From Bacteroidaceae bacterium (GTDB lineage Bacteria; Bacteroidota; Bacteroidia; Bacteroidales; Bacteroidaceae), in NCBI GenBank assembly GCA_016284115.1, contig JAEEOD010000145.1:1-38629 (forward strand): 38,629 bases of DNA, in the 5' to 3' direction. The notes below the pieces were generated by a model that saw only the letters and a list, made by a program, of their open reading frames with translations, was not told the DNA's origin and ran no database searches. This document shows, piece by piece, positions 16,609-37,096 of the stretch. Position 1 is the first letter of the stretch. Every line of letters begins with the position of its first letter. The position numbers were made by a program, and so were the translations under genes.

Positions 16609-16669
16609 TGGATGTCTGAAATATTATTGTTTGAATTAAGATGTTATTTAATTTGTAAATTTTTGAATT

Positions 16670-17068: not shown

Positions 17069-17089
17069 TTCTACTTTAATAGGTTTTGT

Positions 17090-17122
17090 CTGTTGCTTTG
17101 CATATTTAATGCAAGGCAGCAG
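17090..17122 (+). promoter_or_regulatory. Intercistronic stem-loop between hcp copy 2 and the third hcp-like gene
   Basis: CTGTTGCTTTGCAT (17090-17103) pairs with ATGCAAGGCAGCAG (17109-17122) over 14 base pairs, including two G-U wobbles, around a 5-base ATTTA loop. No T-run follows, so it is unlikely to be a strong terminator. It may protect the upstream tube and sheath mRNA or partly attenuate the genes for low-copy spike parts. Confidence 0.55.
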
Positions 17123-17158
17123 GCATACTATGTATAATACATCATGAGACGATAGCTT

Positions 17159-21901: not shown

Positions 21902-23880
21902 TGAGTACGGTTTTATCAGAATGGACGTCGGCACTGACTAAGCTACAGGCCAGTGTGACAAAGGATTTGGCTGAAATTCGCAAACAAAAAGCGGAAATAC
22001 AGCAATTAAAAGATGATATTTACACACGTCTTTCAGAGGAATTGTATATTCACAATGACAAACGTATTATTCTCTCTGCTCCAGAGGTTATTATCGGTAA
22101 CGTGGATGCTAACGGCATGTTGTATGGCGATTCGGGAATAGTAATCATTCGTGGTGGCAAGGTGAATCTGGAAGGCTCTGGCGAAACTGGTACAGTCAGC
22201 ACCAAAGCTTCTATAATTGAGCAAAAAGCAGTTGATCCTGGAGCTGATGGGATACAAGAAGCAGTATTGTCGAATTCGAAGATTATCAATCAAGCTAAAA
22301 ATATTGTAATACAAAGCAACGAGTCAGATGGCTATTTTTCTCAGACCCCTATTTCTACGGGTGGTACTGGAGTGCGTATTCATGCGGATGAGAATTTGGA
22401 GATTGATGTCACAAAATCTGTCGAAACGAGAGGTAAAACCATAGATGGCCTACTTTCAACATTGAACAAAGATAAGACAGATCTCTCTATGGCTGCTACA
22501 AAGCAGATTTCGGGAGTGACGGCACTTACCACTGAGATGGAGTTGCTTTTGAAAACAGAAGATTTGCTGAATGCAAGTGAAATCCTTACGCGTACCAATG
22601 TGGTGGATTTGGATGCAGCTCAAGATAAGTTTGAGGCAATGGTACCAGCTATGCACAATGCATTGGATAGTTGTATTAGAACGCTGTCGCAATTAGCAGA
22701 AACCAACCGACGAATTACTGCGTTGAAAGCTGAGCAGAAGAAACTAAATGCAGACAAGTCAAACTTTAAAAAGGAAACTATAAACACGCATCTTACACTA
22801 CGTGCTGAGAGCTTGGACATTGAAGCAGTAGATGGTGATGGCAATATTCGTGAAAATCCTGAGGCGGTTATTAACGTACAGACTGGTAAGGTGAGAATCA
22901 ATACTTGTAAAGCTGACGGTTCTTTGATAGATGACAGTAGTGTGGTTATCACCACCAAGAACATGGTGGTGGATACTGCCAATCCGAAGTTGGATGACAA
23001 GGGCAATGGCGAAATTCCGACAGTGGGAAGTTTTAAAGTGCGGGCTAAAGACATGGCGTTCGAAAGTGTGGACAATACCATTAAGGATGGCAAATTAGAA
23101 GAAAAGGAACAAACTAAAGATAGTGTTTTTAATGTTCGAGTTGAAAACACAAATTTCTCTTCTTTAGACGCAAAAGAAAATTCTACTTCTGGTAGGTTTA
23201 TGGTTGGCGTGGAAAATGTAATACTTGCTTCTCACGACAAAGATAAGAATGTTTCAGGCTCATTCAGTGTGATGCACCAGCAAATGTTGATGGCTTCAAT
23301 TGACAAAGACGGCAATGCTACAGGTTCCTTCAAAGTAAATGTGGAGAAGACAGATGTAGCTGCTGTGGATAAGGGCGGCAAGGCACTTGGACAAATTGTC
23401 TTAAACGGAAAGGATGTGTTTGTGAAATCTATGGACACAGACGATAAGGGCAAGGACAAGAACCTGGCTGCTGGTGGCAACATGGTATTGGTGGCTGAAA
23501 AGATGTTTTTGGGACGTACTGCCAAGAAAAATACTGCTAAGCAAGTGCAGATATCGGCAGATAAAACAGGTCTTTATGGTACTTCCACAACCGAAGTACA
23601 ACAAGGCGACGGCAAAGCTATCGTACAGCTTGATGGTGGCAACCTGTCAATGTCAGGCTCTAATATGCAACTTTATGGCAACACTACCGCCAATAGCAAT
23701 GTTGAATTTAAAGCAGAAGTCAAGGCTCCTAAGCTTACTGCTGATAACCTAGAGGCCAAGACTTCATTCAAAAGTGCGAATATCAGTGATGGTATTGCCA
23801 TTCCAGGTGCACCTTCTACAGCCAGTCTCAGTGCGAAGTTAAAGGAGGAAGATGCTCCTGAACCAAAACAAAATAGTTAG
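21901..23880 (+). CDS. Spike-associated beta-repeat protein
   Basis: I do not recognise a named family. The 659-residue protein begins with a coiled coil (about 10-45). Beta-rich segments resembling VgrG or phage tail-spike needles follow (RIILSAPEVIIGNVDANGML, GIVIIRGGKVNLEG), then a second helical region (about 165-300). A long beta-repeat region (about 300-640) contains five exact 22-residue units. There is no signal peptide and no enzyme motif. Sited between VgrG and the PAAR-like gene and coupled to both, it is probably a second spike or spike-extension component, or a carrier. The C-terminal tail is short and charged (KEEDAPEPKQNS). Confidence 0.65.
   Translation: MSTVLSEWTSALTKLQASVTKDLAEIRKQKAEIQQLKDDIYTRLSEELYIHNDKRIILSAPEVIIGNVDANGMLYGDSGIVIIRGGKVNLEGSGETGTVSTKASIIEQKAVDPGADGIQEAVLSNSKIINQAKNIVIQSNESDGYFSQTPISTGGTGVRIHADENLEIDVTKSVETRGKTIDGLLSTLNKDKTDLSMAATKQISGVTALTTEMELLLKTEDLLNASEILTRTNVVDLDAAQDKFEAMVPAMHNALDSCIRTLSQLAETNRRITALKAEQKKLNADKSNFKKETINTHLTLRAESLDIEAVDGDGNIRENPEAVINVQTGKVRINTCKADGSLIDDSSVVITTKNMVVDTANPKLDDKGNGEIPTVGSFKVRAKDMAFESVDNTIKDGKLEEKEQTKDSVFNVRVENTNFSSLDAKENSTSGRFMVGVENVILASHDKDKNVSGSFSVMHQQMLMASIDKDGNATGSFKVNVEKTDVAAVDKGGKALGQIVLNGKDVFVKSMDTDDKGKDKNLAAGGNMVLVAEKMFLGRTAKKNTAKQVQISADKTGLYGTSTTEVQQGDGKAIVQLDGGNLSMSGSNMQLYGNTTANSNVEFKAEVKAPKLTADNLEAKTSFKSANISDGIAIPGAPSTASLSAKLKEEDAPEPKQNS
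23122..23451 (+). repeat. Five 66-bp (22-residue) tandem repeats in the spike-associated gene
   Basis: Units start at 23122, 23188, 23254, 23320 and 23386, each exactly 66 bases apart. The protein core is about S-G-S-F-x-V followed by a beta stretch and A-S-x-D-K-D-G-N. Nucleotide identity between units is low while the protein pattern is kept, so they are old, selected repeats. They fit rungs of a beta-helix or stacked beta-prism. Confidence 0.8.
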
Positions 23881-23884
23881 AGGT

Positions 23885-24271
23885 ATGGGAAAGTTTGTTT
23901 GTATGGGCGCATTGCTGCAATGCAGCTTCGGAATGGCTCCATCTTCATTGATGGTGACAGTTCCTTTACGCCCAAAGGCACAAAACATGTTGATGGCCAC
24001 AATAATGGATATGGTGCCAATGACGAACATCTTGCCTTTTGGCATGTGCCAGTCGATGGCTAATCCACAGGTAGCAGCAGCAACTTCAGCTGCGATGGGT
24101 GTGCTGACACCTATGCCCTGCGTACCAGCCATCTTGGCGCCATGGGCACCCCCCAGCAAGGTAATGGTAATGAACCAGCCAGCCTTATTGGATAATGGTA
24201 AGTGTATGTGCATGTGGGGAGGACAGATTTCCATCACCAACCCAGGCAACATGATGGCAGAAGGGAAATGA
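23885..24271 (+). CDS. PAAR-like spike tip protein (DUF4280 type)
   Basis: PAAR-like proteins cap the VgrG tip and can attach effectors. The product from this ATG is 128 residues and begins MGKFVCMGALLQCSFGMAPS, the typical start of the DUF4280/PAAR-like group, with two early Cys. Later segments (PFGMCQSMANPQV, LTPMPCVPA, LLDNGKCMCMWGGQISITNP) give four more Cys that may bind a metal at the tip. It is unusually rich in Met. An upstream in-frame ATG at 23852 would add 11 residues, but that start overlaps the preceding gene and the conserved block begins here. There is no C-terminal toxin extension. The stop overlaps the PEGA gene start (ATGA). Confidence 0.87.
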   Translation: MGKFVCMGALLQCSFGMAPSSLMVTVPLRPKAQNMLMATIMDMVPMTNILPFGMCQSMANPQVAAATSAAMGVLTPMPCVPAILAPWAPPSKVMVMNQPALLDNGKCMCMWGGQISITNPGNMMAEGK

Positions 24272-25638
24272 GATGGCTTACCGTCATACTACTGTCGTTC
24301 CTATTGTTGCCGTTACAGGCACAACAGATGAAGATGACCGATTTTCATAAGTTGAAAAAAGGTCCTTTGAATATGCACCATGTGGTAACAGAGAAACGGC
24401 AAGCGACGCTTGACTTGGTGACGACGGAAAAAGGATTTACCTTCTTAGCTGATGGTGTAACTGAATTACAAGCTGAAAAAGGAGAAAAGGGCATTACCCT
24501 AAAGGCTCCGCACAAGACCAGATTCTTGCTTATCAAGCATGAAGAGTACGGACAGTTATTCTGGAAGGTGCCTGGTAGTAAAGGATTGAGAAAAAAGAAA
24601 CATTATGAGGCACAGCTCCTGACTAAGAGCCGTGAGAAGGACTATAAGTTGCAAAACCAGTGGGTGGTCTTTGAAGTATTGCCAGAAAATGCCATAGTAT
24701 ATGTGGATAGTACACAAATTGCCACACGTAATGGCAGGGTACAATTGGAATTAACGGTGGGTAAGCATCCTTATAAGGTTGAGTCACCGTTTCATGAACA
24801 GCAGGATGGAATAATTCAGATAGTAGATACTGTGAAAACTACTATACAAGTATCACTGCAGCCCATCTATTCCTACCTGACAGTTAAGACACCACAGGAA
24901 GATGGTGAGATATTAGTTGATGGTTTGACCATTGGCTATACAGAGGCCACCAGTGGGCGATTGATGGATGGAACTCACCGTTTGACAGTGATGAAAGGTG
25001 ATGTTTGCATATATGAGGCGGATGTGGTGATGGCAAAGGCCGAGAAGAAAACATTGACCTTAACTACCGACGACCTCTATCCTCGGTGGAAAAAGAAAGT
25101 TGTTTCATATGCCTTAGAAGATGGGCAGACATCAAGAACCGTAGAGGACAGGTCAGTAGCAGAACAGGTGAGCGATAGTGTAGCTATAGATAAAGAAAAG
25201 ACCGCTTTAGTGACCATATCAGCTCCCAATGACTCTACGGAGATATGGCTAAACAGGGAGCTATTGGGCACTGGACGATGGGAGGGACAACTGCCGATGG
25301 GTTTCTATGCCATCAATACTCGCTCTGACGGTATTGAGTCTACTCCACAATACCTATGGGTGGAAGATGAGTCACCACAACAGTTGGATTTATCCACTAC
25401 AATGGCAGATTATGGTTATTTGAATATCCATAGCAACGAAGTGGATGCAGATATATATATAAATGGTGTGTTAAGCGGATGCACCCCTTGGATAACGGGA
25501 AGGTTGTCAGCTGGTAGAACCTATAACATAAGGCTTAATAAACAGGGATTCAAGGATGTAACAAAGCAGGTAAAGGTGATTGGCAACACGCTGACAGATG
25601 TAGTTGTTAAGATGAAAAAGAAAAAAAATAAAAGATAA
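24268..25638 (+). CDS. Secreted four-repeat PEGA-domain protein
   Basis: From the ATG that overlaps the PAAR stop, the protein has 456 residues and a Sec signal peptide (MRWLTVILLSFLLLPLQAQ). After an N-terminal beta-rich domain come four PEGA-like beta units. They lie around VVFEVLPENAIVYVDSTQI, LTVKTPQEDGEILVDGLTIG, VTISAPNDSTEIWLNRELLG and LNIHSNEVDADIYINGVLSG. PEGA domains are extracytoplasmic binding modules often linked to surface layers or peptidoglycan. The protein ends in a very basic tail (KMKKKKNKR). Set inside the T6SS operon, it may be a periplasmic or outer-membrane-side part of the envelope complex. That role is inferred, and I could not match it to any TssN-R component. Confidence 0.75.
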   Translation: MRWLTVILLSFLLLPLQAQQMKMTDFHKLKKGPLNMHHVVTEKRQATLDLVTTEKGFTFLADGVTELQAEKGEKGITLKAPHKTRFLLIKHEEYGQLFWKVPGSKGLRKKKHYEAQLLTKSREKDYKLQNQWVVFEVLPENAIVYVDSTQIATRNGRVQLELTVGKHPYKVESPFHEQQDGIIQIVDTVKTTIQVSLQPIYSYLTVKTPQEDGEILVDGLTIGYTEATSGRLMDGTHRLTVMKGDVCIYEADVVMAKAEKKTLTLTTDDLYPRWKKKVVSYALEDGQTSRTVEDRSVAEQVSDSVAIDKEKTALVTISAPNDSTEIWLNRELLGTGRWEGQLPMGFYAINTRSDGIESTPQYLWVEDESPQQLDLSTTMADYGYLNIHSNEVDADIYINGVLSGCTPWITGRLSAGRTYNIRLNKQGFKDVTKQVKVIGNTLTDVVVKMKKKKNKR

Positions 25639-25643
25639 AGTCA

Positions 25644-26348
25644 ATGAAAAGGGCTATTTTAATATTGCTTGATGAGCTGAAAGGTAAACTGAGTGGTTAT
25701 GCCGTGTTGTTGCAATATCGGTATATGAACTTGTGTGTGAAGGCAGAGCCTTCCTCCTTGCTCTCGTTTTCAGTAGTGGATAATGAAGGGAGTGTCTTTG
25801 ATATAGAAAAGGTAGCAGGTGTCATGCAGAAAAACGACTATCAGTTTGAGATTGTTCCTCACAATGATGAATTTTTATTTCCTATCTGCAAGGCAATTAT
25901 GCAGACTCATCCAGAATTCAAGCAAAAGGTGATAGTAGCTGAGGAAGAAGATAAAGTGTTTCTGGATGATAGCGAAGAACGGCACATCATTTGTACCATG
26001 CCCGATGTAGACAATGATCGTCGTAAACTTTTGATAGATGCTGTATCCACGCTATACGATGATTGCGGGATGCAATTGGACAAGGCGAAAGGTGAATACA
26101 CGACTCGTCTGCTTTCAAAGATGGTAGGACAAAGCCCTTCTGATATTGACGAAGCAAAGGATGCTTTGGAAAAATTATATGACAGGCATAAAAGCATTGT
26201 CAAGAAGTATAAAGAAAACAAAGAAAAAGAGATAGAGGATGCATACCAACGTTGGCTAGCAGGAAAAGAGGAGAAAGACCAAAAGCAGCTAGAACAGAAT
26301 GAAGCGATGGGAGAGAAGGCTGCAAAAACATTGAATCTTGAGCATTAG
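25644..26348 (+). CDS. Ribosome-recycling-factor-like protein next to the E1 gene
   Basis: The 234-residue product resembles RRF over about residues 1-207. An N-terminal helix leads into a small beta domain (SVVDNEGSVFDIEKVAGV, then YQFEIVPHNDEFLFPICKAI, matching the RRF segment I-x-P-W-D near the domain II helix). Next come MPDVDNDRRKLLIDAV (RRF: P-P-L-T-E-E-R-R-x-x-L) and the two long helices ending KKYKENKEKEIEDA. The Arg-rich R-N-x-R-R stretch of real RRF, needed for its ribosomal work, is replaced (MQLDKAKGEY). An insertion of acidic residues lies near 100-112, and a charged tail follows. This is a paralogue with probably non-ribosomal work. It stands 5 bases after the PEGA gene and 13 before the E1 gene. 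The homology is by eye only. Confidence 0.6.
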   Translation: MKRAILILLDELKGKLSGYAVLLQYRYMNLCVKAEPSSLLSFSVVDNEGSVFDIEKVAGVMQKNDYQFEIVPHNDEFLFPICKAIMQTHPEFKQKVIVAEEEDKVFLDDSEERHIICTMPDVDNDRRKLLIDAVSTLYDDCGMQLDKAKGEYTTRLLSKMVGQSPSDIDEAKDALEKLYDRHKSIVKKYKENKEKEIEDAYQRWLAGKEEKDQKQLEQNEAMGEKAAKTLNLEH

Positions 26349-26361
26349 ATATTGGGAGTTA

Positions 26362-27471
26362 ATGTATAAAGACCAATCTCCTCATATTATGGTAGTAGGC
26401 TGCGGTGCCTTGGGCAACGAAGTACTGAAGAACTTGACGTTGATGGGTGTTGAACATATCGTTGTAGTAGATTTTGACCACGTGGAAATAGGCAACTTGA
26501 CACGTTCGGTGCTATTTAGGAAAGTTGATGCGGAGACAGGACGATGGAAGACCGATGTGGTGACGGAAAGACTCAAAGAACTGAATCCACAATTAGATAT
26601 AAAAGCCATAAGAGGTGACATTGCATATGATATTGGTTTAGGGTTGATAAGACAGATGGACGTGGTGATAGGCTGTGTGGATAGTCAATGGGCGCGTTTC
26701 TGTATCAACCGTCTCTGTATGAGAGCAGGGATACCATGGATAGATGGTGGCATCAGTGAATTGGAAGGTACAGTAAGGGTGTTTGTGCCAGACAAGAACT
26801 GTTATGCATGTAACTTAGGTCCTGAAGGTTTGAAAGATTTAAAGCGGAGGATGCCCTGTTCAGGTATCATCAGACGACATGAAGAAGCAGGCTCTGTCCC
26901 TACTACTTCGCTGATAGCTTCGATTATCGGGGCAGTGCAGGTGCAAGAAGCTTTAAAGTTTCTTCAACCTGATGCTTTGGAGAAGGGCAGTTTGGAGTCA
27001 CTATGTGGCAAGATGTTCTACTATGAGGGAGAACATTTGACCACACGTTTGATAAGTTTTCAGGCATGGGATGACGATTGCTTTGAACATGAGTGTTGGG
27101 AACCCGTGGAACCGACGAAGGTAACACCCCTAATGACAGTAAGTGAAGTATTACAGATACTGCGAGAAGAATTGGCTGCCAATGAAGTAGAGATAAGTTT
27201 ACGAAACGACTGCTTCGTGGATTATGTGATAGAACGTGCTACTGATAGGCAATGGGAAGTGATGCAAGCTGGAAGAAATGTAGAAGATTTTGTAGAGCGT
27301 CATAAACGGTTGGCTGGTATTCCTTTTAGTGAGTTGTATCAGCACGAATATCGACGTATAGAAATCGACTTCCCATATCAAGAATTGACGTTAGCAGCTT
27401 TGGGATTGCCTGAGCAGGATGTGCTTTGCGTGCATGCTGACGGAAAAGAACGATTTGTTGAGATGAAATGA
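26362..27471 (+). CDS. E1-like ubiquitin-activating enzyme (ThiF/MoeB fold)
   Basis: E1 enzymes adenylate the C-terminal Gly of a ubiquitin-like protein and load it on Cys. The 369-residue protein has the ThiF-type Rossmann loop GCGALG (13-18), DFDHVEIGNLTRSVLF (37-52) with the Asp and Arg of the ATP site, and GCVDSQWARFCINRLC with the Mg-binding Asp. Cys166 (MPCSGI) precedes SVPTTSLIASIIGAVQVQEA and is the best catalytic candidate. C147/C150 and C240/C245 may bind zinc. A C-terminal extension of ~115 residues ends YQELTLAALGLPEQDVLCV. I chose the ATG at 26362, preceded by GGGAG, over an upstream TTG at 26338. Its stop overlaps tssG (ATGA), coupling it to a baseplate gene. Confidence 0.88.
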   Translation: MYKDQSPHIMVVGCGALGNEVLKNLTLMGVEHIVVVDFDHVEIGNLTRSVLFRKVDAETGRWKTDVVTERLKELNPQLDIKAIRGDIAYDIGLGLIRQMDVVIGCVDSQWARFCINRLCMRAGIPWIDGGISELEGTVRVFVPDKNCYACNLGPEGLKDLKRRMPCSGIIRRHEEAGSVPTTSLIASIIGAVQVQEALKFLQPDALEKGSLESLCGKMFYYEGEHLTTRLISFQAWDDDCFEHECWEPVEPTKVTPLMTVSEVLQILREELAANEVEISLRNDCFVDYVIERATDRQWEVMQAGRNVEDFVERHKRLAGIPFSELYQHEYRRIEIDFPYQELTLAALGLPEQDVLCVHADGKERFVEMK

Positions 27472-28250
27472 AAGAAGAGACTAACATACCGCAGATTAGG
27501 GCAGAAGTGTTATTGAATCGTCTCTATCCAGAGATGGAACAGCAGTGGAAAACACGCTGCAGTGGCACTTTCTATCGCAACTATAACCAAGATATCCTAG
27601 ATCTGGATGACGAGAGTTGCGAGGTGGAATTGAGCCGTGATGGTTTTCTGAACCAGTTGCCTCAAGGACTCTATACACAACAAGATGACTTGAGAGGAGA
27701 GGACATGCGCACTAAATTCAAAGAGTTGGAGCGGCGTGTGAAACTCCTCAAAGAAACTTTTATTCCTTTCGACACTTATTGGTTCAGGCAGCAGTTGCTT
27801 GCTGAACGGAAAATTTCTGAACTACTGGATGAAAAATTGGAATATGTGTTGCGTACTTACTTTGATTTCGACTTGAATAAGGAACAAAATCCTCTGGTAA
27901 AAGAGGCGGCAGTGATATTGCCTTTTGTGAGCAGTAAACGAGGTGATTATGGCTTTGTGAGGTTGCTATTGGAGGCTTTATTACATTGTAAGGTAACGAT
28001 GGAGCTAGGGCGTTTTGGACATACGGATAGTTCTAAGCGATGGTTGCCAATAGTACGGTATGAGGTGTTGATGTCTGAACTCACAGCTAAAGAATTTATT
28101 AATAAAAACACAGCGTTAGACCCACTAAGAGCGTTTGTCTGTGAGTGGCTGATTCCAATGGAAGTGGAATGCCAAATCTTGATTAAGGAGCATGGCATGA
28201 CGCAACGGACGAATGAGCGGCTGACGTTGGATTATAACACAGAGTTTTAA
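27468..28250 (+). CDS. tssG: T6SS baseplate protein TssG
   Basis: TssG joins TssF and TssE in the baseplate wedge from which the sheath grows. The 260-residue protein is of the Bacteroidota type. It has an N-terminal helical part with FYRNYNQDILDLDDES, the wedge-like helix stretch FIPFDTYWFRQQLLAERKIS, then a beta-rich C-terminal region ending LTLDYNTEF, typical of this group. Sequence similarity to proteobacterial TssG is low, so the call also leans on order: it lies between the E1 gene and tssK, in a block of TssG-K-E-F. It has no signal peptide or membrane segment. Confidence 0.75.
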   Translation: MKEETNIPQIRAEVLLNRLYPEMEQQWKTRCSGTFYRNYNQDILDLDDESCEVELSRDGFLNQLPQGLYTQQDDLRGEDMRTKFKELERRVKLLKETFIPFDTYWFRQQLLAERKISELLDEKLEYVLRTYFDFDLNKEQNPLVKEAAVILPFVSSKRGDYGFVRLLLEALLHCKVTMELGRFGHTDSSKRWLPIVRYEVLMSELTAKEFINKNTALDPLRAFVCEWLIPMEVECQILIKEHGMTQRTNERLTLDYNTEF

Positions 28251-28251
28251 T

Positions 28252-29463
28252 ATGGGTGTAATGGATATTAATTCAAGAATCAACTGGAAACCTGGTATGG
28301 AGATTACCGCTGGAGCGATGCATGATATGGCATCCAGCGATAGCCTAAAGATTCGGGTGGCATTAAGGGCCTCCATGGCTGACATGCGTATGGGCAGATT
28401 GCCTAGTATGCCATTTGAATGTCAAGGAGTGTTTGTGAAGAATTGTTTCGAGGTAGATCATTTCAGGTGTATGGCCTTGTTGCCATCGGGTAACATAGTA
28501 GATGCTGATGAGGATGTAACGGTAAATATACCAATGTTGTTTGGGGAACGGTATTATTTGACTATAGGTATAGCTGAAGGGGATCGTGAGTTCGAAAAAG
28601 AGGGAATTCCTTATGTAACTACACGATATGAATATGCCATCCATTCATTACAAGAAATAGAGGAGAATGACCTATTCCCATTAGTTCGCTTCAATGCGAA
28701 GAATGGTGAACTAAGCATCGATACAGAATTCATCCCTCCTTGCCTGCTCTTGAAGGATGACCCTCGTTTCCAAGTTTATTTGGAAAACTTTACGAGTTCC
28801 TTTGAGCGATTGGCTATGCATTCTAATTTGGCAGAAGGTGATGGTAAACGAGCATTGTTACATTATCTTTTCCTCTTAAAAGGATACAATATGGATGGTA
28901 GTATGCAAGCATTGTTGTCATTACTGCAAGAAATCGCACAAGCTATCGACTACTTTGTGATGAAACCAAATACGGAGGTGCCCGTGCTTGTACCCGTTGC
29001 TTCTGTTGTAGATCCTCAAGATTGGCTACAATGGTTTGAGAATTATTTGTCAAGTGCTATCGCTTTGCTCAATAATGTAGTACTTGAGAATCATACCATT
29101 GACTATGAGGCTCTCCTGGCACAAGCAAAGGCTGAGCTTTATAGCCGCCTACATCCAGAACTGATAGAGAAGTTGCTGGCTGATTTAAAAGAGGAGGTGA
29201 GAGCAGAGATGCAACGTCAGACAGAAACGATAACTACCTATATCAATGATAATCTCAAAGTGGAACTGGAGAAACATTTGAGTGGCATTTTAGAGGAGAA
29301 AACTGAACAGATGAGTGAAGAACAGCGAGTGAAACTAACTAAGGCAACAGAGGAGATTACTAGTTCTCTCTATGAGAAGCTTTACATGGAGCTATTCGAC
29401 AATCTGTTCAATGCATTGTATGTGCCAGAACCTGAGAAGGAACCTTTTGTACCATTGATTTGA
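28252..29463 (+). CDS. tssK: T6SS baseplate-membrane connector TssK
   Basis: TssK links the baseplate to the membrane complex. The 403-residue protein starts INWKPGMEITAGAM, which fits the TssK opening V/I-x-W-x-x-G-M. It has a beta-rich shoulder domain to about residue 160 with the SIDTEFIPPCLLLKDDPRF segment typical of TssK. A helical neck and head domain follow (RALLHYLFLLKGYNMDGS onward), then a coiled coil-like region (about 290-385, EEVRAEMQRQTETITTYIND) that is longer than usual. It begins one base after the tssG stop. Since this system has no TssJLM, the C-terminal region probably contacts another membrane partner. Confidence 0.85.
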   Translation: MGVMDINSRINWKPGMEITAGAMHDMASSDSLKIRVALRASMADMRMGRLPSMPFECQGVFVKNCFEVDHFRCMALLPSGNIVDADEDVTVNIPMLFGERYYLTIGIAEGDREFEKEGIPYVTTRYEYAIHSLQEIEENDLFPLVRFNAKNGELSIDTEFIPPCLLLKDDPRFQVYLENFTSSFERLAMHSNLAEGDGKRALLHYLFLLKGYNMDGSMQALLSLLQEIAQAIDYFVMKPNTEVPVLVPVASVVDPQDWLQWFENYLSSAIALLNNVVLENHTIDYEALLAQAKAELYSRLHPELIEKLLADLKEEVRAEMQRQTETITTYINDNLKVELEKHLSGILEEKTEQMSEEQRVKLTKATEEITSSLYEKLYMELFDNLFNALYVPEPEKEPFVPLI

Positions 29464-29481
29464 TATACATTGGAAGATAAT

Positions 29482-29937
29482 ATGGATAGTCTCATAATAC
29501 CATTAAAGGTCACTGAAAAAGGTTTTGCAATAGAGAAGAATCTAAAGCGGAGCATTGATGCAATGATAGAACTTTTGCTTACTACTCCACAATTCAGTAT
29601 GCCTGCTGATTCTGGTTTTGGTTTCGTTTTCAACAACTTGCGTTTTGAAATATTCAACGAACAAGAGGGAGTGGTATTTGATAGTAATGACAAAGGGTCA
29701 GTGTACGGACTTCCTGGGTTATATAATAAAAAGATATCTGGTTCTTCTAATAATCTGAACACATATGCAACAGAATTGAAGAATGTTATAGAGAAATATG
29801 AAAATAGACTGAAAGACATAACTGTTTCCATGAATTATGTGCGTAAGGAACGTCAGGTTGATGTCAATGTTAAGGGAGTAATTGTATCCACTGGCAAAGA
29901 GTATGTCTATACTAATAAACTTAAGATTTGGAACTGA
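29482..29937 (+). CDS. tssE: T6SS baseplate gp25-like protein TssE
   Basis: TssE is the lysozyme-like gp25 homologue that starts sheath assembly in the baseplate. The product has 152 residues from this ATG and begins MDSLIIPLKVTEKGFAIEKN. The diagnostic segment is IELLLTTPQFSMPADSGFGF followed by VFNNLRFEIF, which fits the gp25 pattern of T-x-x-G-E/Q-x-x-x-P-x-x-G and a late acidic-aromatic helix. A TTG start 12 bases upstream is possible, but the ATG has GGAAG just ahead of it. It sits between tssK and tssF. Confidence 0.82.
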   Translation: MDSLIIPLKVTEKGFAIEKNLKRSIDAMIELLLTTPQFSMPADSGFGFVFNNLRFEIFNEQEGVVFDSNDKGSVYGLPGLYNKKISGSSNNLNTYATELKNVIEKYENRLKDITVSMNYVRKERQVDVNVKGVIVSTGKEYVYTNKLKIWN

Positions 29938-29960
29938 TTATTATAGATTGATTAATATTA

Positions 29961-31667
29961 ATGAAACAGACTATTTTTGAAACCAGAATAAAGGCTGATG
30001 AGTTACTTCGAGAAGCTCTGGACGTGTGGCGACTGAGCGACATGGATGATGCCCTAGAAGGTTTGGAGAACGATCCAGTGATGAAAATCTTACTCACTGC
30101 GCTCGCCTATCAAGCCAATGAAACTTCTGGTGACATTGAAGCTATCAAAGAGGAAGTGCTACAAGATTTTGCTAAAATGCTCGTTCCTTATGAGGTAGGT
30201 CATGCAGTGCCTGCCACTGCAGTTGTGGAAATGGCAATGGAAAACTCATTGTCTGAACAGATGGTGGATGAAAAGAGTGTATTTATGCTGGCAAACACTA
30301 CACATTCTTTTATTCCATTACTAAAGACCCATGTGTTGAATGCAGAAATACGCTCTATTGTGCGAATGGACGGACGTAGATGGAAGGTGTCACTAGAGTT
30401 TGCCACCCCAATTACAGATATATCTGGTATGAGTTTTGCTGTAAAGAATGCATATTTCCAAGATCTAATGGTAACATTGAACGGGCAAACTCTGCCAATA
30501 GTGAAACCATGGGATTTCTCTGAACTGCCTCTAACTGATTATTTCGGGTTAGACACCATCCTTTATAACCGTTCTCAAACCTATAATGCATCGGCTTTGT
30601 GTTTGGATTTGTTTGCTCGTCAGAATGTCAGATTATTCTTCCTAAAGAAATTTGATTATAATAGTGCCTTTTCTTTTGAAACTAAGCATTTAGATTTGGT
30701 TTTCGAGTTTTCTGGCATCACCGATCATTTTATGTTTGATAAGAATAATTTCTTCATCAATGCCACCGTATTGGTAAATGCGAAGAAGAAGACGGCAACA
30801 CTTTCTAAAGCAATGCCAGTGGCAAGGGTTGCAGGTACTGAGAATGGAATTGATCAGGAAGGTGAGCAGTTTCTACATGCCATTAGGCCTTCTGAGGAAC
30901 AATTGTATATGGATGCTTTGATAGAAGTGCGCCGTGTGGCTACCGACCGTTTCAACCAAAGTCGCCTTTTGAGTTTGTTGAACACGCTGGTTACAAAATA
31001 CCGCTCCGACTTCATAGCTTTCAAAAGTTTATCGGAGATCGCTAATGATAAAACGATGCAGGCTTTACAGAGTATATTATCTGGTTTGTTTAGTGAAATA
31101 GGTAAAGACAAGTTAAATGTTGTGCCAGGAGTATATCTGATGTTACGACAGCAAACAAGAAAGTCTCCAAAAGAACTTAGTCTAGATGTAGATTATTTGA
31201 CTACGAACGGTGCCAACGTAAATGCCTTATTGAAGGCAGACAGTAGATTTGAAACCCCTTATGGCATTTTAGCTGAAAAGACTCACCAAATCGCTGAACC
31301 AATCTTAGGCATTGATGAGATTAAGAACCAATATGTTGAAGAAAGTCTTACTCGTTATTATCTAATGACACACGATCGTATAGTGACTCCAGCTGACATA
31401 AAGATTTTCTGCTACAACGAACTATTGATTCATTACGGCATCAACCGTGATATGGTAAAAGCTATTTCGGTGAGCAGGAGACAAAGACAAGATTTGAAAT
31501 CTTGTGGTTATGAGGTGATTGTGGAGATTACATTGGTGAACAATCCTGTTATTATTCGTGGTTTTTCCGACAAGATGCAACAAGTTGCTATACTGATTGA
31601 GAAAATGATTGAAGTGAGAAGTGCTAATGTTTATCCAGTGTTTGTGACAATAAAGATAGAAGATTGA
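29961..31667 (+). CDS. tssF: T6SS baseplate protein TssF (VasA)
   Basis: TssF is the main baseplate wedge protein, comparable to phage gp6. The 568-residue product opens with helices, and near residue 74 has VLQDFAKMLVPYEVGHAVPA, which fits the conserved TssF segment with L-x-P-x-x-x-x-P-P just before the beta domain. A beta-rich centre follows (DITGMSFAV-like strands around 155-250). The C-terminal part holds helices and a final alpha/beta domain (YVEESLTRYYLMTHDRIVTP and onward) like baseplate J proteins. It is the longest of the baseplate genes, as expected, and ends 29 bases before the ubiquitin-like gene. Confidence 0.83.
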   Translation: MKQTIFETRIKADELLREALDVWRLSDMDDALEGLENDPVMKILLTALAYQANETSGDIEAIKEEVLQDFAKMLVPYEVGHAVPATAVVEMAMENSLSEQMVDEKSVFMLANTTHSFIPLLKTHVLNAEIRSIVRMDGRRWKVSLEFATPITDISGMSFAVKNAYFQDLMVTLNGQTLPIVKPWDFSELPLTDYFGLDTILYNRSQTYNASALCLDLFARQNVRLFFLKKFDYNSAFSFETKHLDLVFEFSGITDHFMFDKNNFFINATVLVNAKKKTATLSKAMPVARVAGTENGIDQEGEQFLHAIRPSEEQLYMDALIEVRRVATDRFNQSRLLSLLNTLVTKYRSDFIAFKSLSEIANDKTMQALQSILSGLFSEIGKDKLNVVPGVYLMLRQQTRKSPKELSLDVDYLTTNGANVNALLKADSRFETPYGILAEKTHQIAEPILGIDEIKNQYVEESLTRYYLMTHDRIVTPADIKIFCYNELLIHYGINRDMVKAISVSRRQRQDLKSCGYEVIVEITLVNNPVIIRGFSDKMQQVAILIEKMIEVRSANVYPVFVTIKIED

Positions 31668-31696
31668 TTTTTAGTTTGATTTTAAAATAATACTAT

Positions 31697-32014
31697 ATGG
31701 AAGATTTCTTTTTAGATATCACTTATAAGAATAAGACGGTGAGGTTTAAGGTAGTGAATCCTGATGCACCTTTGAGCCAGTTGATGAACAATCTGCGGCA
31801 TGCCGTAGGTAGTGATGGTAGGTTGATATTTGATTTTCCTTCTATTGACCAGACTGGTGCTCCCTTAGATTATTTCTTTGGGAAAGAAGACCCAGCCGTT
31901 AATGAGGTGAGGGTTTTGCGCCCTCGCATTGGCAAGAATGACCAAAAATTGAAGGATTATAATGTAAACAATGGGGACAAGTTGTTCCTCATACCTGACC
32001 CATTCCCCGGATGA
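31697..32014 (+). CDS. Ubiquitin-like beta-grasp protein with free C-terminal Gly
   Basis: The 105-residue protein fits the ubiquitin fold: two strands at the N-terminus (FFLDITYKNKTVRFKVVN), a helix (PLSQLMNNLRHAVG), more strands, then LKDYNVNNGDKLFLIPDP. That last part lines up with the ubiquitin element L-S-D-Y-N-I and its final strand. The chain ends in ...PFPG, so a Gly is already exposed and no trimming protease is needed for activation. It lacks the Gly-Gly of ubiquitin. It is coupled to the E2-like gene (stop and start overlap, ATGA), and the E1 is 4.2 kb upstream in the same operon. YukD-type or MoaD/ThiS assignment is less likely because of this E2 partner. Confidence 0.82.
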   Translation: MEDFFLDITYKNKTVRFKVVNPDAPLSQLMNNLRHAVGSDGRLIFDFPSIDQTGAPLDYFFGKEDPAVNEVRVLRPRIGKNDQKLKDYNVNNGDKLFLIPDPFPG

Positions 32015-32568
32015 ATGAGCTAAAAGGAAAGAATCGTCGCTTATATGCTGAGTGGCAACTGATAGAGAAAAGGCTGGCTGGTCGACAAGACATCAGCTAC
32101 GAGGTAACGAAACAAAATGTAGTAGGTTTACCTATTGGTTACCTGATACACTATAAATTGAAAAGCATCTGTGGAGTCAGCGAAGTAGAACATCTCAATG
32201 AACCTGATGTAAGCAACGTACCACAGTTTGCTACTGGATACTGGATGAGCATTCTACTGCCCGATGGATATCCATCGGTAGATGCGCCTCCTGTGTTCCA
32301 GTTCCTAACCAAGGACGAACAAGGGAAGCCAATACCACACCCTTGGCATCCCAATATACGGTATTTCGGTGCATTTGCCGGACGCGTCTGCATTAACATG
32401 GCAGACACATACACCAACTTGGCTTGGGGCGTGATGAGAGTGGCTGATTATTTGCGATACGAGATATATCATGCGGTGCAAGAGCCCCCATACCCAGAGG
32501 ATTTGAAAGTAGCTTCATGGGTAATGAGGCAAGGTGAGCCGAATGGCTGGATTTATTTTAACCAATAA
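32011..32568 (+). CDS. E2-like ubiquitin-conjugating enzyme (UBC fold)
   Basis: E2 enzymes receive a ubiquitin-like protein from E1 on a Cys and pass it to a target. The 185-residue protein shows the UBC order: N-terminal helix, strands, PSVDAPPVFQFLTKDEQGKP, then the HPN motif (His113-Pro114-Asn115), Cys127 in GRVCINMAD as the thioester site, and TYTNLAWGVMRVADYLRYEI as the helix with the conserved Trp. The Asn-to-Cys gap is 12 residues, slightly longer than in UbcH5-type enzymes. All core residues are present, so it should be active. It follows the Ubl with a 4-base overlap and precedes a secreted protein. Confidence 0.9.
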   Translation: MNELKGKNRRLYAEWQLIEKRLAGRQDISYEVTKQNVVGLPIGYLIHYKLKSICGVSEVEHLNEPDVSNVPQFATGYWMSILLPDGYPSVDAPPVFQFLTKDEQGKPIPHPWHPNIRYFGAFAGRVCINMADTYTNLAWGVMRVADYLRYEIYHAVQEPPYPEDLKVASWVMRQGEPNGWIYFNQ

Positions 32569-32584
32569 GTTGAGGATGAAAGGA

Positions 32585-33736
32585 ATGAATAAAAGAATAT
32601 TGTGGATAGGGTGGTTCTGCTTACTGATGCAGGGCTCTTGGGCGCAGACGATGAAAACCATCACCGTCAGCCAGCAGACACCATATACCGATCACCTAAC
32701 TTTGGCAAAAGATACACGTGACATGGACCTGATGGTGAAGTTCATCTTTAATGAAGGTGAAAATACGCTTACGGTAAGCCTCATTTCTTATCGTTCGTTC
32801 TTCGTATTTTGGGACCAAGTGCGCTATAAGCCTGCCGTCTGGAAAGGGAAAGTGCATCAGGAGTTACTACCATATGTCGTAGATGAGAACCCTAAAACCA
32901 AGTTCAAACTCAGTCGTGCATTTAAGCGTTCGATTCCGAAGCCACGAAAAGACCATGTGTTTAATCGCTGGATTACAGTTGAGGGCTTACAGCCAGTACC
33001 AGTACCTTATAAAATGGTGAACTCCATCATTGAGCAGAAATATGATATTGTAGGCAAACGTGATTTAGTAAAAGTCACTTTGCGCGACATTCTATTGGCT
33101 GATAAAAAAGATACACGCGTAGGTAAACCTGAACGCTACGAGATATCCTTTGGCACTGACCTTAATCTTCAATATCAAGTGCTCATCAATCGTGACCCAT
33201 GTTTCGGTATGGAAGAGGAAATAACTGCTGCTCAAAAAGCCACTGCCAGTGCCAAGAATGGAGCCGAAGCCATCAAGAATCGCTTCGGTAGCGGTTTAGT
33301 AGCTAACAAAGAACAACTTGCCTTATTTGAGCAAATGAAAGGGCTGTTTGTGCAACAGTTCCCACTGCATGAGGGCGCTGCTAGTACTTGCCCAACGATA
33401 AACCAAGCCTGGGAAGAATACAACAGTTATATTAACGAAATCTCCGCCATGGAATGCTCCGTGAGCCTAACAGGTGCTGCAGGAGTTGCCGGTGATGGAG
33501 TGAATGCACGACTGTTATTGGTTAAAGCTCGTCAAATAGATAACCTTGTATCGCGCTGGCTACTATCTAACGATACCATTGAACGTCGAGACATTATTAC
33601 TAAATGCGAAGAAGTAATTGCTGAAGTGGATGCTCTGGTAAAGCAACAGGGCATCAAAACTGCAGAACAACGTAATGCCTTTAACGTATTCCGTGAGGCA
33701 CAGCAATATTATAAAACCAACTGCTCTAAACCATGA
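32585..33736 (+). CDS. Secreted protein of unknown function in the T6SS operon
   Basis: I do not recognise this 383-residue protein. The ATG chosen gives a clean signal peptide (MNKRILWIGWFCLLMQGSWA), whereas upstream in-frame starts (GTG 32534, ATG 32543, ATG 32576) would add residues ahead of it, and the first two overlap the E2 gene. The first half is beta-rich and mentions of MVKFIFNEGENTLTVSLISY and RYEISFGTDLNLQYQ suggest a beta-sandwich. The second half is helical. Several late Cys (DPCFG, STCPTI, MECSVS, TKCEE, TNCSKP) could form disulfides. It overlaps the next gene by 4 bases (ATGA). A periplasmic role in the T6SS envelope complex is inferred. Confidence 0.7.
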   Translation: MNKRILWIGWFCLLMQGSWAQTMKTITVSQQTPYTDHLTLAKDTRDMDLMVKFIFNEGENTLTVSLISYRSFFVFWDQVRYKPAVWKGKVHQELLPYVVDENPKTKFKLSRAFKRSIPKPRKDHVFNRWITVEGLQPVPVPYKMVNSIIEQKYDIVGKRDLVKVTLRDILLADKKDTRVGKPERYEISFGTDLNLQYQVLINRDPCFGMEEEITAAQKATASAKNGAEAIKNRFGSGLVANKEQLALFEQMKGLFVQQFPLHEGAASTCPTINQAWEEYNSYINEISAMECSVSLTGAAGVAGDGVNARLLLVKARQIDNLVSRWLLSNDTIERRDIITKCEEVIAEVDALVKQQGIKTAEQRNAFNVFREAQQYYKTNCSKP

Positions 33737-34581
33737 GGTATGCATGTATATTGTTGGCATGGCTGTGGTTGCCATTAGGTGGCATGGCACAGACTTATGA
33801 GGATCTTAGTCCTTATGAGGTGGAGATGCGTGTGCTTCAGTTCTATGACGAGTTGGATGAGCTATTTCTTAGAAGCAGTCAAAAATTAGACTTTGACTAT
33901 GAGAGTCCAATGCCTGAAGGTTTGGTACAATCGGTGGATGAAAACATTAACTCGATGGAAGGTGATTTGCAGTCATTCAATACCCGTTGGAATACCTATC
34001 AGCAGGGTGTACAATCCTACATCGCATCTGATGACACACTACTTGTGAAGGTTGCGGATGTTCAACAATTACAACAAAAAGTTACAGAGTCAATAGCCAG
34101 CTTGCGGCAACAATTTGACCAGATGGAGGCTTTTAACCGTGCCGAAGTGTATTTGTTCAGTCAAGACTCTACCTATAGCAGCCTCTACAGCCAAGCGATG
34201 AAACTGACGTTATCTGCCAAGCTACAAGCACAGCTAGAGAAGGTTAAGGCGTCTGAGCAATTACAGTTTGCCAATGTACAGAAATCCTATGAAGAAGCCA
34301 AGCAGACAGCAGAGGCCATACCCCAATTGAAGGACCGTATGCAGAGGTTAGAAAACAAATATGTTGAGCTGAAAGTAGTGTCTGGTAAAATTCAGGAAGC
34401 TGTCTACAAGCCACTCATGGAACGCATAAAGGACTGGCTCATGTCAACTGCAGCAGTAGCAATCGTGCTGATGTTTGCCAATATGGTGATTGCCCGTATA
34501 AAGGCAGCTAGAAAAGCGGTTGCACAGGCTAAGAAATTAAAAGATATGATGGGAGGGGCGCAAGATTACCCCACAATATAA
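33733..34581 (+). CDS. Periplasmic coiled-coil protein with one C-terminal membrane segment
   Basis: The 282-residue protein starts with a signal peptide (MRYACILLAWLWLPLGGMA). A mostly helical, Gln/Glu-rich region follows, with heptad-like coiled coils (about 75-125 and 160-225). Near 236-256 is one hydrophobic segment (LMSTAAVAIVLMFANMVIAR), then a basic tail of about 25 residues (KAARKAVAQAKKLKD) predicted to be in the cytosol. The shape, long in the periplasm with one inner-membrane anchor, suits a trans-envelope T6SS membrane-complex part. I could not match it with confidence to TssN, TssO, TssP, TssQ or TssR. Confidence 0.72.
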   Translation: MRYACILLAWLWLPLGGMAQTYEDLSPYEVEMRVLQFYDELDELFLRSSQKLDFDYESPMPEGLVQSVDENINSMEGDLQSFNTRWNTYQQGVQSYIASDDTLLVKVADVQQLQQKVTESIASLRQQFDQMEAFNRAEVYLFSQDSTYSSLYSQAMKLTLSAKLQAQLEKVKASEQLQFANVQKSYEEAKQTAEAIPQLKDRMQRLENKYVELKVVSGKIQEAVYKPLMERIKDWLMSTAAVAIVLMFANMVIARIKAARKAVAQAKKLKDMMGGAQDYPTI

Positions 34582-34630
34582 CATTGGCGATTTATGATAA
34601 GCCATTAAACAAATAACATTGAAGAATGAG

Positions 34631-37096
34631 ATGAAGGTTTTGAATAAATATATTGGATACATGAGGATTGTCTCTTTCCTGTTGGTATCAAGTTTCTTGG
34701 GCTCATGTGATTTCAAGGAGAACCTTGAGATTGATTCGTTGCTGACAAAATTCGATAGTGCTGTATCACAAAAGAAGCAGGTAGAGTGTTTGGTAACCAA
34801 AGTGGAGACCTCTGACGATTATAAGTTCATGAACTTATCTGTAAAACTCAACAAAGGAACAGGAGTGGTGGATATTTCTGACACTACTGCTGTTCAAGTG
34901 AATCTCCATCAAAAAGCTGGTTTGATAACAGGTATAATGGTGAACGACGAACGACCTCCTATCTTTTATGCCATCCACCATATAGCAAAGGACTCAGTGG
35001 CTGCTTCCAAAATCAAAATGTTGATGCTTGTTGATCTCAGTTTACCTCAGTATCTGATAGATCTGGAACAAGAGGCTGTATTACAAGCGCGGACATTACT
35101 TGGCTCTCAACACCTTTATGTAGCTTTCATGCAGGACGGAAATGTGTCTGAGACCTACGAAGCAACAGACTATATTATAAATACATATTTTAAAAACCAG
35201 TCATCATCAAATATTTTCCTATACCGCTCCTTACTAACGAAACTGGAGGAGATAGTAGACTCAACTAGCTTGTTATCTAATGCCAAGCACAAAGGGTTGA
35301 TAGTGCTTTCGGGAGGTCGAACTTATGAGAATGATCGTCCAATCGACCCACGTCATTTCGTTATTCAACAACGTTTAGCAGAGCTGGCTCCACAACTTCA
35401 AAAGCGCGATATAACGGTGAGCTACGCACAGTTCTCGCCATCGAGTGAGGCTTCTTCCAAAAAAGCCGATGCTTCTTCAAAGCAGGTGTCAACTAACAAC
35501 CAACAGGAGTTGGGTATTATGCGCTTGATATGTAGCCAAACTGACGGTGTGTTCCAAAACACTTTCGATTGGATAGGCATTCGCGATGACTTTATGAAAG
35601 ATCATCAGATTAGTTACGACGATTACCTCATAACTTTAATGATGCCAGAGAATAAGGTCTTTCATGGCAATCATATGTCTCTTGACTTGGATTTCATCAA
35701 CAAGCAAAATGAGGAAAAATTAACTACCTGTCATTTAGACTATTCCTTTGGTAGCGTGTTCTATCCCATCATTGTTGGAGGGAAGAATCTCATAGAGATA
35801 TTGCTTCGTGGACTGTTGGTGGCATTGTGTTTGGCACTTGCTATCTGGCTTGCCTTGCAGTTGGTAGTGCCATGGGTACGCTATCAGTTATTCCTCCGCC
35901 GTTACGTAATTCGCTACACAGGCAAACAGATGAGCAAGGATGGCATTCTCCTAAGTGAAACTTGTTATTCCTGTAAAGCTCCATTTGAAGAGGGTGATGA
36001 GATAGTAACCAAATGCAGTCACACCATGCATAAAGAGTGCTGGGACGAAATTGGCTACCAATGTCCTGAGCATGGGCGCAATTGTGCTCATGGTTCACAC
36101 TATTATAACAGCAATAACCTGCTTGACACCCGAAATGCCACATTCTACCAGCAGTGGATTTTAGCAGGTTTGTTGGCAGGACTGTTAGCATGGGTATTCT
36201 TTATGTTACGCATACATCTGTTTAGTACTCAGCTGCTCACCAATTTGATGTTTTTTATCTTTGGCATTAAAGCTGGCACACCAGAGGCAGAGCGTTTTTT
36301 ACTAGACCATTCTGTACATTTGGATTTCCAGCCTTCATTTGGCTTCTGTATAGCTTTCTTTACTACCTTGCTTTTATCTATGCTCTCGTTGCGCAGTGTA
36401 AATTGGAAGTCGCGCCTCAGTAATATACTTGTACGTGCAGGCATAGCTGGTTTGTTGAGCTATCTACTATTTGCCTTTAGTTGTGTAATTGCAATATTGT
36501 TGGGTATTAAGACCAACTCGATGATTCTAGATTGTTTGCCTTGGATTCTCATGACGGCTATCATCATGTACTGTGTCACTTGGCACACTCGTGTACGCAT
36601 ACGCCCGTTGTGGTTGGTGACAGCTTGTCTAGCGGGCGTCATCTCCTTCTATATGTGGATGTTGTTATACCGTGACACATTTGTAGATTTCCGCCTGTTC
36701 CTTTTGCTCAGCTTCCTCTTTACTACCATTATAATAGCTATTTGTATTGCATATGAGGCTCCTCATTCAGAACATTATTTCTTGCAAGCAAGTGGCGTCA
36801 TCAAACCAGTAGAAATTGCTCTGTATAAGTGGTTAAGAACAGATCCATCGGCTGTTGTTACTTTAGGTCAGTCTCCTGATAATTCTATCCAACTATCTTG
36901 GGATCTTTCAGGCAATGTAGCTCCTACACATGCAGAAATACGTTTGCGAAACAATTCCATTTGGCTTACAGCTTTGGAACAAGGAGTCATCATTGATGAT
37001 ACTCTCCTTGCTGCCGGAACATCTGAGCCGCTATGGCATGGACGTAGTTTTACCATCGGTAATACAACGTTCACTTATATCGAAAAAGACCTGTAA
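34631..37096 (+). CDS. vWA / 7-TM / RING-H2-like / FHA-like membrane protein
   Basis: This is an 821-residue membrane protein that I infer is the E3-like or sensor element. Parts in order: lipoprotein signal (SSFLGSC, with Asp at +2); a periplasmic vWA-like domain (about 120-300; MLMLVDLSLPQ replaces the DxSxS site); first membrane segment (about 385-412). Then a cytosolic zinc-binding site C445-x2-C448-x13-C462-x1-H464-x2-H467-x2-C470-x7-C478-x2-H481, a RING-H2 spacing. Six more membrane segments follow (about 500-725), then an FHA-like domain (about 740-821; VVTLGQSPDNSI, PTHAEIRL, LWHGRSFTIGNTTF). Seven segments put the vWA outside and RING and FHA inside, which agrees with the positive-inside rule. 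Start chosen at ATG 34631 rather than TTG 34619. Confidence 0.82.
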   Translation: MKVLNKYIGYMRIVSFLLVSSFLGSCDFKENLEIDSLLTKFDSAVSQKKQVECLVTKVETSDDYKFMNLSVKLNKGTGVVDISDTTAVQVNLHQKAGLITGIMVNDERPPIFYAIHHIAKDSVAASKIKMLMLVDLSLPQYLIDLEQEAVLQARTLLGSQHLYVAFMQDGNVSETYEATDYIINTYFKNQSSSNIFLYRSLLTKLEEIVDSTSLLSNAKHKGLIVLSGGRTYENDRPIDPRHFVIQQRLAELAPQLQKRDITVSYAQFSPSSEASSKKADASSKQVSTNNQQELGIMRLICSQTDGVFQNTFDWIGIRDDFMKDHQISYDDYLITLMMPENKVFHGNHMSLDLDFINKQNEEKLTTCHLDYSFGSVFYPIIVGGKNLIEILLRGLLVALCLALAIWLALQLVVPWVRYQLFLRRYVIRYTGKQMSKDGILLSETCYSCKAPFEEGDEIVTKCSHTMHKECWDEIGYQCPEHGRNCAHGSHYYNSNNLLDTRNATFYQQWILAGLLAGLLAWVFFMLRIHLFSTQLLTNLMFFIFGIKAGTPEAERFLLDHSVHLDFQPSFGFCIAFFTTLLLSMLSLRSVNWKSRLSNILVRAGIAGLLSYLLFAFSCVIAILLGIKTNSMILDCLPWILMTAIIMYCVTWHTRVRIRPLWLVTACLAGVISFYMWMLLYRDTFVDFRLFLLLSFLFTTIIIAICIAYEAPHSEHYFLQASGVIKPVEIALYKWLRTDPSAVVTLGQSPDNSIQLSWDLSGNVAPTHAEIRLRNNSIWLTALEQGVIIDDTLLAAGTSEPLWHGRSFTIGNTTFTYIEKDL

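Follow-up and report, generated by a model that had tools for sequence, protein, structure and literature searches.

What would a complete set of ubiquitin-like conjugation proteins be doing inside the operon of a contractile secretion machine? The question is raised by contig JAEEOD010000145.1 of a Bacteroidaceae bacterium, of which 38,629 nt of the forward strand were analysed (the window). An earlier note on this DNA had proposed that a type VI secretion system (T6SS) operon in it holds a ubiquitin-like activating enzyme (E1), a ubiquitin-like protein (Ubl), a conjugating enzyme (E2) and a RING-type membrane protein. The four genes were found where it had placed them:

26362-27471, plus strand: E1, a Ubl-activating enzyme of ThiF fold (ThiF, 9.1e-50)
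31697-32014, plus strand: Ubl, a beta-grasp protein ending in DPFPG, followed by the stop
32011-32568, plus strand: E2 of the UBC type, with HPN at 113-115 and Cys127
34661-37096 (start possibly at 34619), plus strand: membrane protein with, in order, a vWA domain, a transmembrane segment (TM), a RING, further TMs and an FHA domain

Our results support a complete, conserved, T6SS-linked ubiquitin-like set that is under strong constraint at every transfer residue. Beyond this, we give about even odds (a probability near 0.5) to the reading that a T6SS devoid of tssN encodes and co-inherits this E1-Ubl-E2-RING set, whose predicted task is to link the C-terminal Gly of the Ubl to some component of the apparatus at the inner membrane.

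The motifs singled out earlier (GCGALG in the E1, the final Gly of the Ubl, HPN and Cys127 in the E2) are all present. In the E1, GCGALG is accompanied by a candidate catalytic cysteine (C166), by candidate Zn ligands (C147/C150/C240/H243) and by a C-terminal domain of about 110 residues; numbered from 26362, C147, C150, C166, C240 and H243 are invariant where aligned, the candidate catalytic cysteine being kept in 75/75 of the rows that have a residue there. The Ubl ends exactly in Gly in 81/81 members (as FPG or IPG) and, according to its AlphaFold2 model (predicted local distance difference test score, pLDDT, of 85; means of the five models from 70.8 to 85.2), is a beta-grasp protein with an exposed C-terminal Gly. 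Fold matches of this model include ubiquitin, SUMO, EccD and bacterial Ubls; the best Foldseek match was the plexin Rho-binding domain (E 9e-4), the only one below 0.001. Matches to YukD were obtained for 19/40 Ubls, and no signal peptide was seen in the Ubl sequence. The window E2 alone had no Pfam match, while UQ_con was matched by 32/35 aligned members of the family; H113 and Cys127 are found in 80/80, P114 and N115 in at least 95%, and the sequence profile identifies this protein as a UBC-fold enzyme with a predicted catalytic Cys.

Of the RING-H2 pattern described earlier for the membrane protein, the eight ligands stood up (C435, C438, C452, H454, H457, C460, C468 and C475, numbered from 34661; conserved in 76/76), whereas the last pair proved to be C-x6-C and not C-x2-C, and an extra vWA domain lies in front. 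In the excerpt of PMC11354881 on bacterial RINGs, these are likewise described as having a longer insertion between the last ligands. A lipobox-like cysteine (Cys16) is kept in 75/76. RING models remained below cut-off for the window protein, and zf-RING_2 was matched in 37/38 members at E-values of up to 0.1; the vWA and FHA domains were supported by the structure model, with a Pfam FHA match of 1.3e-5. As the Foldseek and VIA lists were filled by vWA and FHA, they were uninformative on the RING region. Thus, of the three folds on which the earlier proposal could have failed, the beta-grasp is supported by a model and the UBC fold by a sequence profile, and the RING is suggested by its ligands and by profiles below cut-off; none of this refuted the proposal.

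The arrangement is beyond chance. The E2 had 486 homologs at E ≤ 0.001 (120 of these listed), and scanning genome contigs with it yielded 131 stretches, 120 of them confirmed, the best 80 of which are covered by the locus counts given here. The arrangement recurs in these 80 loci with its catalytic and ligand residues invariant: Ubl, TssE and TssF were found in 80/80, TssK in 78, TssG in 77, and E1 and the RING protein in 76 each. The loci lacking E1 (L006, L016, L036, L049) and those lacking the RING protein (L031, L053, L054, L078) end there at contig ends. Co-occurrence with tss genes in relatives, which had been set beforehand as another of the checks on which the proposal could fail, was therefore found. 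Record titles of the relatives name Prevotella, Xylanibacter, Bacteroides, Mediterranea, Parabacteroides, Alistipes, Paludibacteraceae and others, and the carriers of this type of T6SS are gut and rumen Bacteroidales bacteria. A scan of viral contigs for relatives of the Ubl gave 70 pattern matches, none of which was confirmed. Burroughs, Iyer and Aravind reportedly predicted RING ligases (E3s) and conjugated YukD-like Ubls in bacteria in 2011; we recognised no description of E1, E2 or Ubl genes within a T6SS among the papers listed by searches of the open literature (PMC), though that 2011 work may list some.

The link to the T6SS extends to whole genomes. The sheath protein TssC was present in 28/28 genomes behind the chosen E2 loci, three of which have a second TssC. 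In a sample of 241 genomes of one family, TssC was found in 20 and E2 in 8; all 8 E2 genomes have TssC, and in 7/8 the two genes share a contig and lie within about 20 kb of each other. Among 295 genomes of the order, TssC was found in 15 and E2 in 5, and four of the five E2 genomes have TssC, the fifth (G044) carrying a stand-alone E2; among 395 genomes of the phylum, none of the 24 with TssC was among the 3 with E2. When the family sample was divided by TssC score, E2 was present in 5/5 genomes with window-type TssC (335-347 bits; two of them, G001 and G011, already known as E2 genomes), in 3/8 of those with TssC of 419-441 bits, and beside the canonical TssC (737-759 bits) in 0/8. The sole canonical-TssC genome with E2 (1/8) is G011, where E2 is on the contig of its window-type TssC. 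As the link is restricted to some TssC lineages, it is a trait of certain T6SS lineages and not of all.

Patristic distances of E2 and TssC are correlated (Mantel r 0.91 for 39 pairs and 0.69 for the 32 main-lineage pairs; 0/2000 permutations as high), a correlation to which shared species history contributes. Both trees were quick trees with Shimodaira-Hasegawa-like approximate likelihood ratio test (SH-aLRT) support only, in which long branches and odd composition were flagged. T6SS-linked E2s form one clade apart from stand-alone E2s (SH-aLRT 97), and canonical TssC rows also form one clade (SH-aLRT 100). The locus counts and the genome co-occurrence together bear out the claim that a complete E1-Ubl-E2-RING set is tied to a T6SS. 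In G024, the window-type TssC frame (L109) has one in-frame TAA, perhaps the mark of a decaying system beside a second T6SS.

The T6SS of the window extends from ClpV (12015) to the RING/FHA protein (37096), with all genes on the plus strand, and the genes flanking this run look like chromosomal housekeeping genes. Its remaining features are as follows:

12015-14246, plus strand: ClpV-type AAA+ ATPase (Pfam AAA_2, ClpB_D2-small)
14292-14759, plus strand: TssB, sheath (no Pfam match; named from its position and from the same family beside TssC in relatives and canonical loci)
14801-16168, plus strand: TssC, sheath (PF17541, 5.3e-101)
16216-17572, plus strand: three Hcp/TssD paralogs (PF17642 in all three)
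17606-21901, plus strand: VgrG with a long C-terminal extension (Phage_base_V over cut-off, Phage_GPD below)
23852-24271, plus strand: DUF4280 protein, which we take to be PAAR-like (PF14107, 1.1e-32)
27468-28250, plus strand: TssG (no Pfam match in the window; profile match to the tssG position of canonical loci L129 and L130, with a weak PF06996 match in L129)
28252-29463, plus strand: TssK (TIGR03353, 1.6e-5, below cut-off)
29470-29937, plus strand: TssE (PF04965, 2.9e-7, passing the Pfam cut-off)
29961-31667, plus strand: TssF (weak PF05947; profile match to canonical tssF)
32585-33736, plus strand: conserved protein with a signal-like start, also called the 32534 gene (79/80 loci; no Pfam family)
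33733-34581, plus strand: coiled-coil-like protein with one predicted TM at 236-254 (73/80 loci)

With TssB/C, ClpV, Hcp, VgrG, PAAR and TssE/F/G/K, the window has, as far as its sequence can tell, the components by which a Bacteroidota T6SS is defined. Among the 21 window proteins covered by the Pfam scan, matches above cut-off comprised a ClpB-like AAA, TssC, the three Hcp, the VgrG OB domain, DUF4280, PEGA, a ribosome-recycling factor, ThiF, gp25 and FHA; those of the Ubl, RING, TssK and TssF were below the Pfam or curated cut-off. The names TssG, TssK and TssF come chiefly from profile matches to their counterparts in L129 and L130, and in canonical L129 itself the Pfam matches of tssF and tssG are below cut-off and tssK has none. 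The genes tssG, tssK, tssE and tssF (from 27468, 28252, 29470 and 29961) lie between E1 and Ubl, so that the run reads E1, tssG, tssK, tssE, tssF, Ubl, E2, two genes of unknown function and the RING protein. The 4-base overlaps reported in the earlier note are real (E1/tssG, Ubl/E2 and 32585/33733), and from E1 to the RING protein neighbours overlap by 4 bases or are separated by gaps of at most 79. Also within the operon are a PEGA-domain protein (24202-25638; 63/80 loci) and a ribosome-recycling-factor-like protein (25644-26348; PF01765, 1.4e-10; 55/80 loci).

Which canonical part is missing? TssN (PF17555) had no match among the 21 window proteins scanned. In 43 chosen genomes, 32 of them bearing E2, it exceeded the cut-off in seven, namely G011 and six canonical ones; thus, among the E2 genomes it did so only in G011, which also has a canonical T6SS. 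In the order sample, six of the 11 TssC-positive, E2-negative genomes have TssN, and it was not found in four others (G267, G275, G298, G286) or in the fragment G301. Canonical tssN lies between tssK and tssG; TssN binds TssK, and its cytosolic domain, which has a ubiquitin-like fold, has been proposed to dock the baseplate (excerpts of PMC10781749). Accordingly, tssN stands between tssK and tssG in L129 and L130; in the window, tssG is directly followed by tssK. That TssN might be homologous in sequence to the Ubl or to the RING protein was rejected, the probability being at most 3.4%. For TssO, TssP, TssQ and TssR, no Pfam match so named was found in window proteins, these families not having been searched one by one; the RING protein resembles TssR only in its lipobox and vWA layout. 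A Bacteroidales T6SS with neither E2 nor TssN found (L138 and L139, G286) adjoins Ser/Thr kinase-like proteins and an FHA-like protein, and is possibly a third anchoring type.

A second difference changed the picture: the window lineage lacks the linked JAB peptidase that divergent T6SS-linked and stand-alone relatives carry. The JAMM pattern was absent from the window and, in the best 80 loci, had two matches only (L013, L042), neither JAB-like; these open reading frames and a further match in L126 were rejected as JAB genes because they do not look like JAB. The profile of the linked-type JAB matched 0/26 genomes whose only E2-linked T6SS is of the window type, and the matches in G008 and G024 sit at their second T6SS. 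In contrast, JAB was found in 5/5 divergent T6SS-linked systems (four by a JAMM scan of the loci, all five by the JAB profile on 32 genomes, that of G270 on another contig), so that the broader statement that all T6SS-linked sets lack JAB was discarded and the claim limited to the window lineage. These divergent loci (L113, L115, L122/L123, L125, L127/L146) have E2 and a Ubl ending in IAG, with the RING protein seen in four of five; E1 accompanies tssG, tssK, tssE and tssF in L123 and L146, where the order E1-tssG-tssK-tssE-tssF is retained; in the others, contig ends or the extent of the stretch read set the limit. The 33733 gene of the window occupies the place of the JAB protein in the divergent relatives. 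It had no match in L006, L013 and L027, though no contig ends there, and its homology to the membrane half of the JAB proteins was rejected (hhalign probability below 1%).

Stand-alone operons with no T6SS genes nearby (L124, L144, L145) encode E1, Ubl, E2, JAB and a vWA/RING-like/FHA protein. As these relatives do without a T6SS, the module was probably recruited into it. In L124 (1548-18543) the operon is followed by SrfB (PF07520) and Virul_Fac (PF10139), the latter presumably SrfC; L144 (2822-11725), in which the RING ligands are partly lost, encodes an nSTAND1 ATPase, and a similar open reading frame occurs in L145. The idea that JAB only trims Ubl tails was dismissed, since the divergent Ubls end in Gly and yet are accompanied by JAB, and one of the three stand-alone Ubls also ends in Gly.

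Compared with known systems, the window resembles the canonical Bacteroidota T6SS-iii (TssNQOPR) in its PF17541-type TssC, PF17642 Hcp, ClpV and TssE/F/G/K. In the canonical system, according to parts of PMC10781749, TssN supplies a ubiquitin-like fold on the cytosolic side, and the lipoprotein TssR has a vWA domain; here, on the contrary, no TssN was found and a separate Ubl comes with E1, E2 and RING. Ten canonical loci were read, including four contigs shorter than 10 kb, and none of them had an E1, E2 or Ubl match. With the stand-alone operons the window shares E1, E2 and a vWA-TM-RING-like-TM-FHA protein, all three homologous by profile, and the colinear order of E1, Ubl, E2 and RING protein; the stand-alone genomes differ in having no TssC match and a JAB, and in 2/3 of them the Ubl runs past the Gly (GYLVV, GGK), unlike that of the window. 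The bacterial Bil set (BilABCD) similarly unites Ubl, E2 and E1, and 8tyx and 8tyz are among the fold matches of the Ubl. However, BilA contains two Ubl domains, BilD has an additional, inactive adenylation domain and BilB a CEHH motif, as stated in sections of PMC11354881, whereas the window set has one Ubl domain, one ThiF domain, an HPN-type E2 and a RING, with no linked JAB found. FtsH-ternary tri-ligase Ubl conflict systems also combine E1, E2, a RING-type E3 and Ubl in bacteria; as outlined in portions of PMC7159879, they have a Ubl-E2 fusion carrying EAD1, MoxR-vWA and FtsH partners and JAB, while the window has Ubl and E2 as two distinct genes within a T6SS.

How might such a set serve the machine? 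In the mechanism that we propose, E1 would adenylate the Gly of the Ubl and hand the Ubl, via C166, to Cys127 of the E2. The RING, borne by a membrane protein with its vWA predicted in the periplasm and RING and FHA in the cytosol, would bring E2~Ubl to the dock of the T6SS, and a lysine in a baseplate or anchor protein would then receive the Ubl. TssE K88 is one candidate acceptor, lying in an insert where this lysine is invariant in 80/80 relatives; the insert is common to L146 and absent from L123 and from the six canonical rows compared. Because further invariant lysines are numerous, especially in TssB and TssC, K88 is no more than a lead. The bond would perform the docking job of TssN and, since no linked JAB was found in the window lineage, would probably be largely one-way, hence structural rather than a switch. 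The presence of the set where tssN was not found points to docking or assembly and not to a generic control of firing; together with the missing linked JAB and a RING on an anchor-like membrane protein, it suggests a largely one-way structural ligation at the dock. We read the system as a T6SS subtype with membrane or baseplate assembly dependent on such Ubl ligation. The full version, in which the T6SS would be built by ubiquitin-style ligation, with TssN replaced by an anchor-borne RING that makes a one-way isopeptide bond from the Ubl to a lysine of baseplate or anchor, is less likely than not, and so is its evolutionary part, in which the cascade would have been captured from a stand-alone RING/JAB conflict module and the deconjugase then lost.

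Several observations weigh against this docking reading. Regarding TssN, G267, G275 and G298 have canonical-clade TssC and yet no TssN was found in them; Bacteroidales T6SSs with neither E2 nor TssN exist (G286), and five of the eight genomes with TssC of 419-441 bits lack E2. The lack of TssN alone thus does not call for the ubiquitin-like set. In G001, G006 and G008, TssN matches below cut-off fall in long frames on other contigs, and, as TssN shows no detectable sequence homology to either Ubl or RING protein, its docking role is transferred here by analogy. In the TssC tree, rows linked to the set do not form one clade, and two changes are needed. The RING assignment, suggested by the ligands and profiles named above, obtained no confirmation from fold searches, and Pfam FHA matches only 20/38 members of its family. 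As for the direction of the bond, Pfam Prok-JAB, which misses all five T6SS-linked JABs, exceeded its cut-off in 7/32 genomes (G044 and the window-type G001, G003, G005, G006, G017 and G023); in these six of 26 window-type genomes the matches are unlinked, at other places, and deconjugation in trans is therefore possible, for which reason we describe the bond as largely one-way and not as irreversible. Reversible use is also possible in the divergent lineages with JAB.

Those JABs, linked and unlinked, are what gives some weight to an alternative in which the Ubl is a reversible regulatory tag on sheath, baseplate or effector that gates firing or hands spent parts to ClpV. An FHA domain, suggestive of phospho-dependent control, and a ClpV encoded in the window would agree with it; nevertheless, the window lineage lacks a linked JAB while keeping every conjugation residue, and its E1 adjoins baseplate genes, so that we hold this tag to be rather unlikely. 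A role linked to export, with the Ubl joined to or carried with Hcp, VgrG, PAAR or an effector as a loading or effector tag, could account for a set whose gene run also encodes the three Hcp, the long VgrG and the DUF4280 protein, and B. fragilis is reported to secrete a ubiquitin homolog acting on its kin (PMC5705921). The lack of a visible signal peptide in the Ubl and the placing of the RING on an anchor-like membrane protein count to some extent against export, which we consider improbable.

The two remaining explanations would detach the set from the machine or from its chemistry. It could be a passenger, a Bil/Bub-like or RING-type antiphage module merely located in a T6SS operon, as the stand-alone relatives with their nSTAND1 ATPase in one case and SrfB and Virul_Fac in another might suggest; a passenger, however, would hardly be expected to keep the order E1-tssG-tssK-tssE-tssF in L123 and L146 or to be co-inherited with TssC, and TssC is present in 8/8 E2 genomes of the family sample; we hold this slightly more improbable than export. 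Least probable of all seems a non-covalent scaffold, in which the Ubl docks like a YukD/EccD domain, with E1, E2 and RING acting only as its chaperones: although the EccD ubiquitin-like domain is among the nearest solved folds and YukD matches nearly half of the Ubls searched, the strict conservation of the E2 Cys, the E1 Cys and the C-terminal Gly of the Ubl is hard to explain without transfer chemistry.

What the locus offers is a eukaryote-like set (E1, E2, RING and a Ubl needing no C-terminal trimming) linked to a contractile injection machine, and its JAB-bearing and JAB-less lineages provide a natural experiment on reversible versus one-way conjugation. The survey in PMC10781749, in the parts concerned, states T6SS-iii, with its membrane complex or part of it, to be the only T6SS type of the phylum; if the docking reading is true, Bacteroidota T6SSs would have at least two anchoring solutions. 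Ubl conjugation would then gain a role beyond antiphage defence and cofactor synthesis, and the assembly of a secretion machine by covalent tagging would become directly testable. On the full version given above, no earlier bacterial secretion machine would have been described that needs an E1-E2-E3 cascade for its assembly.

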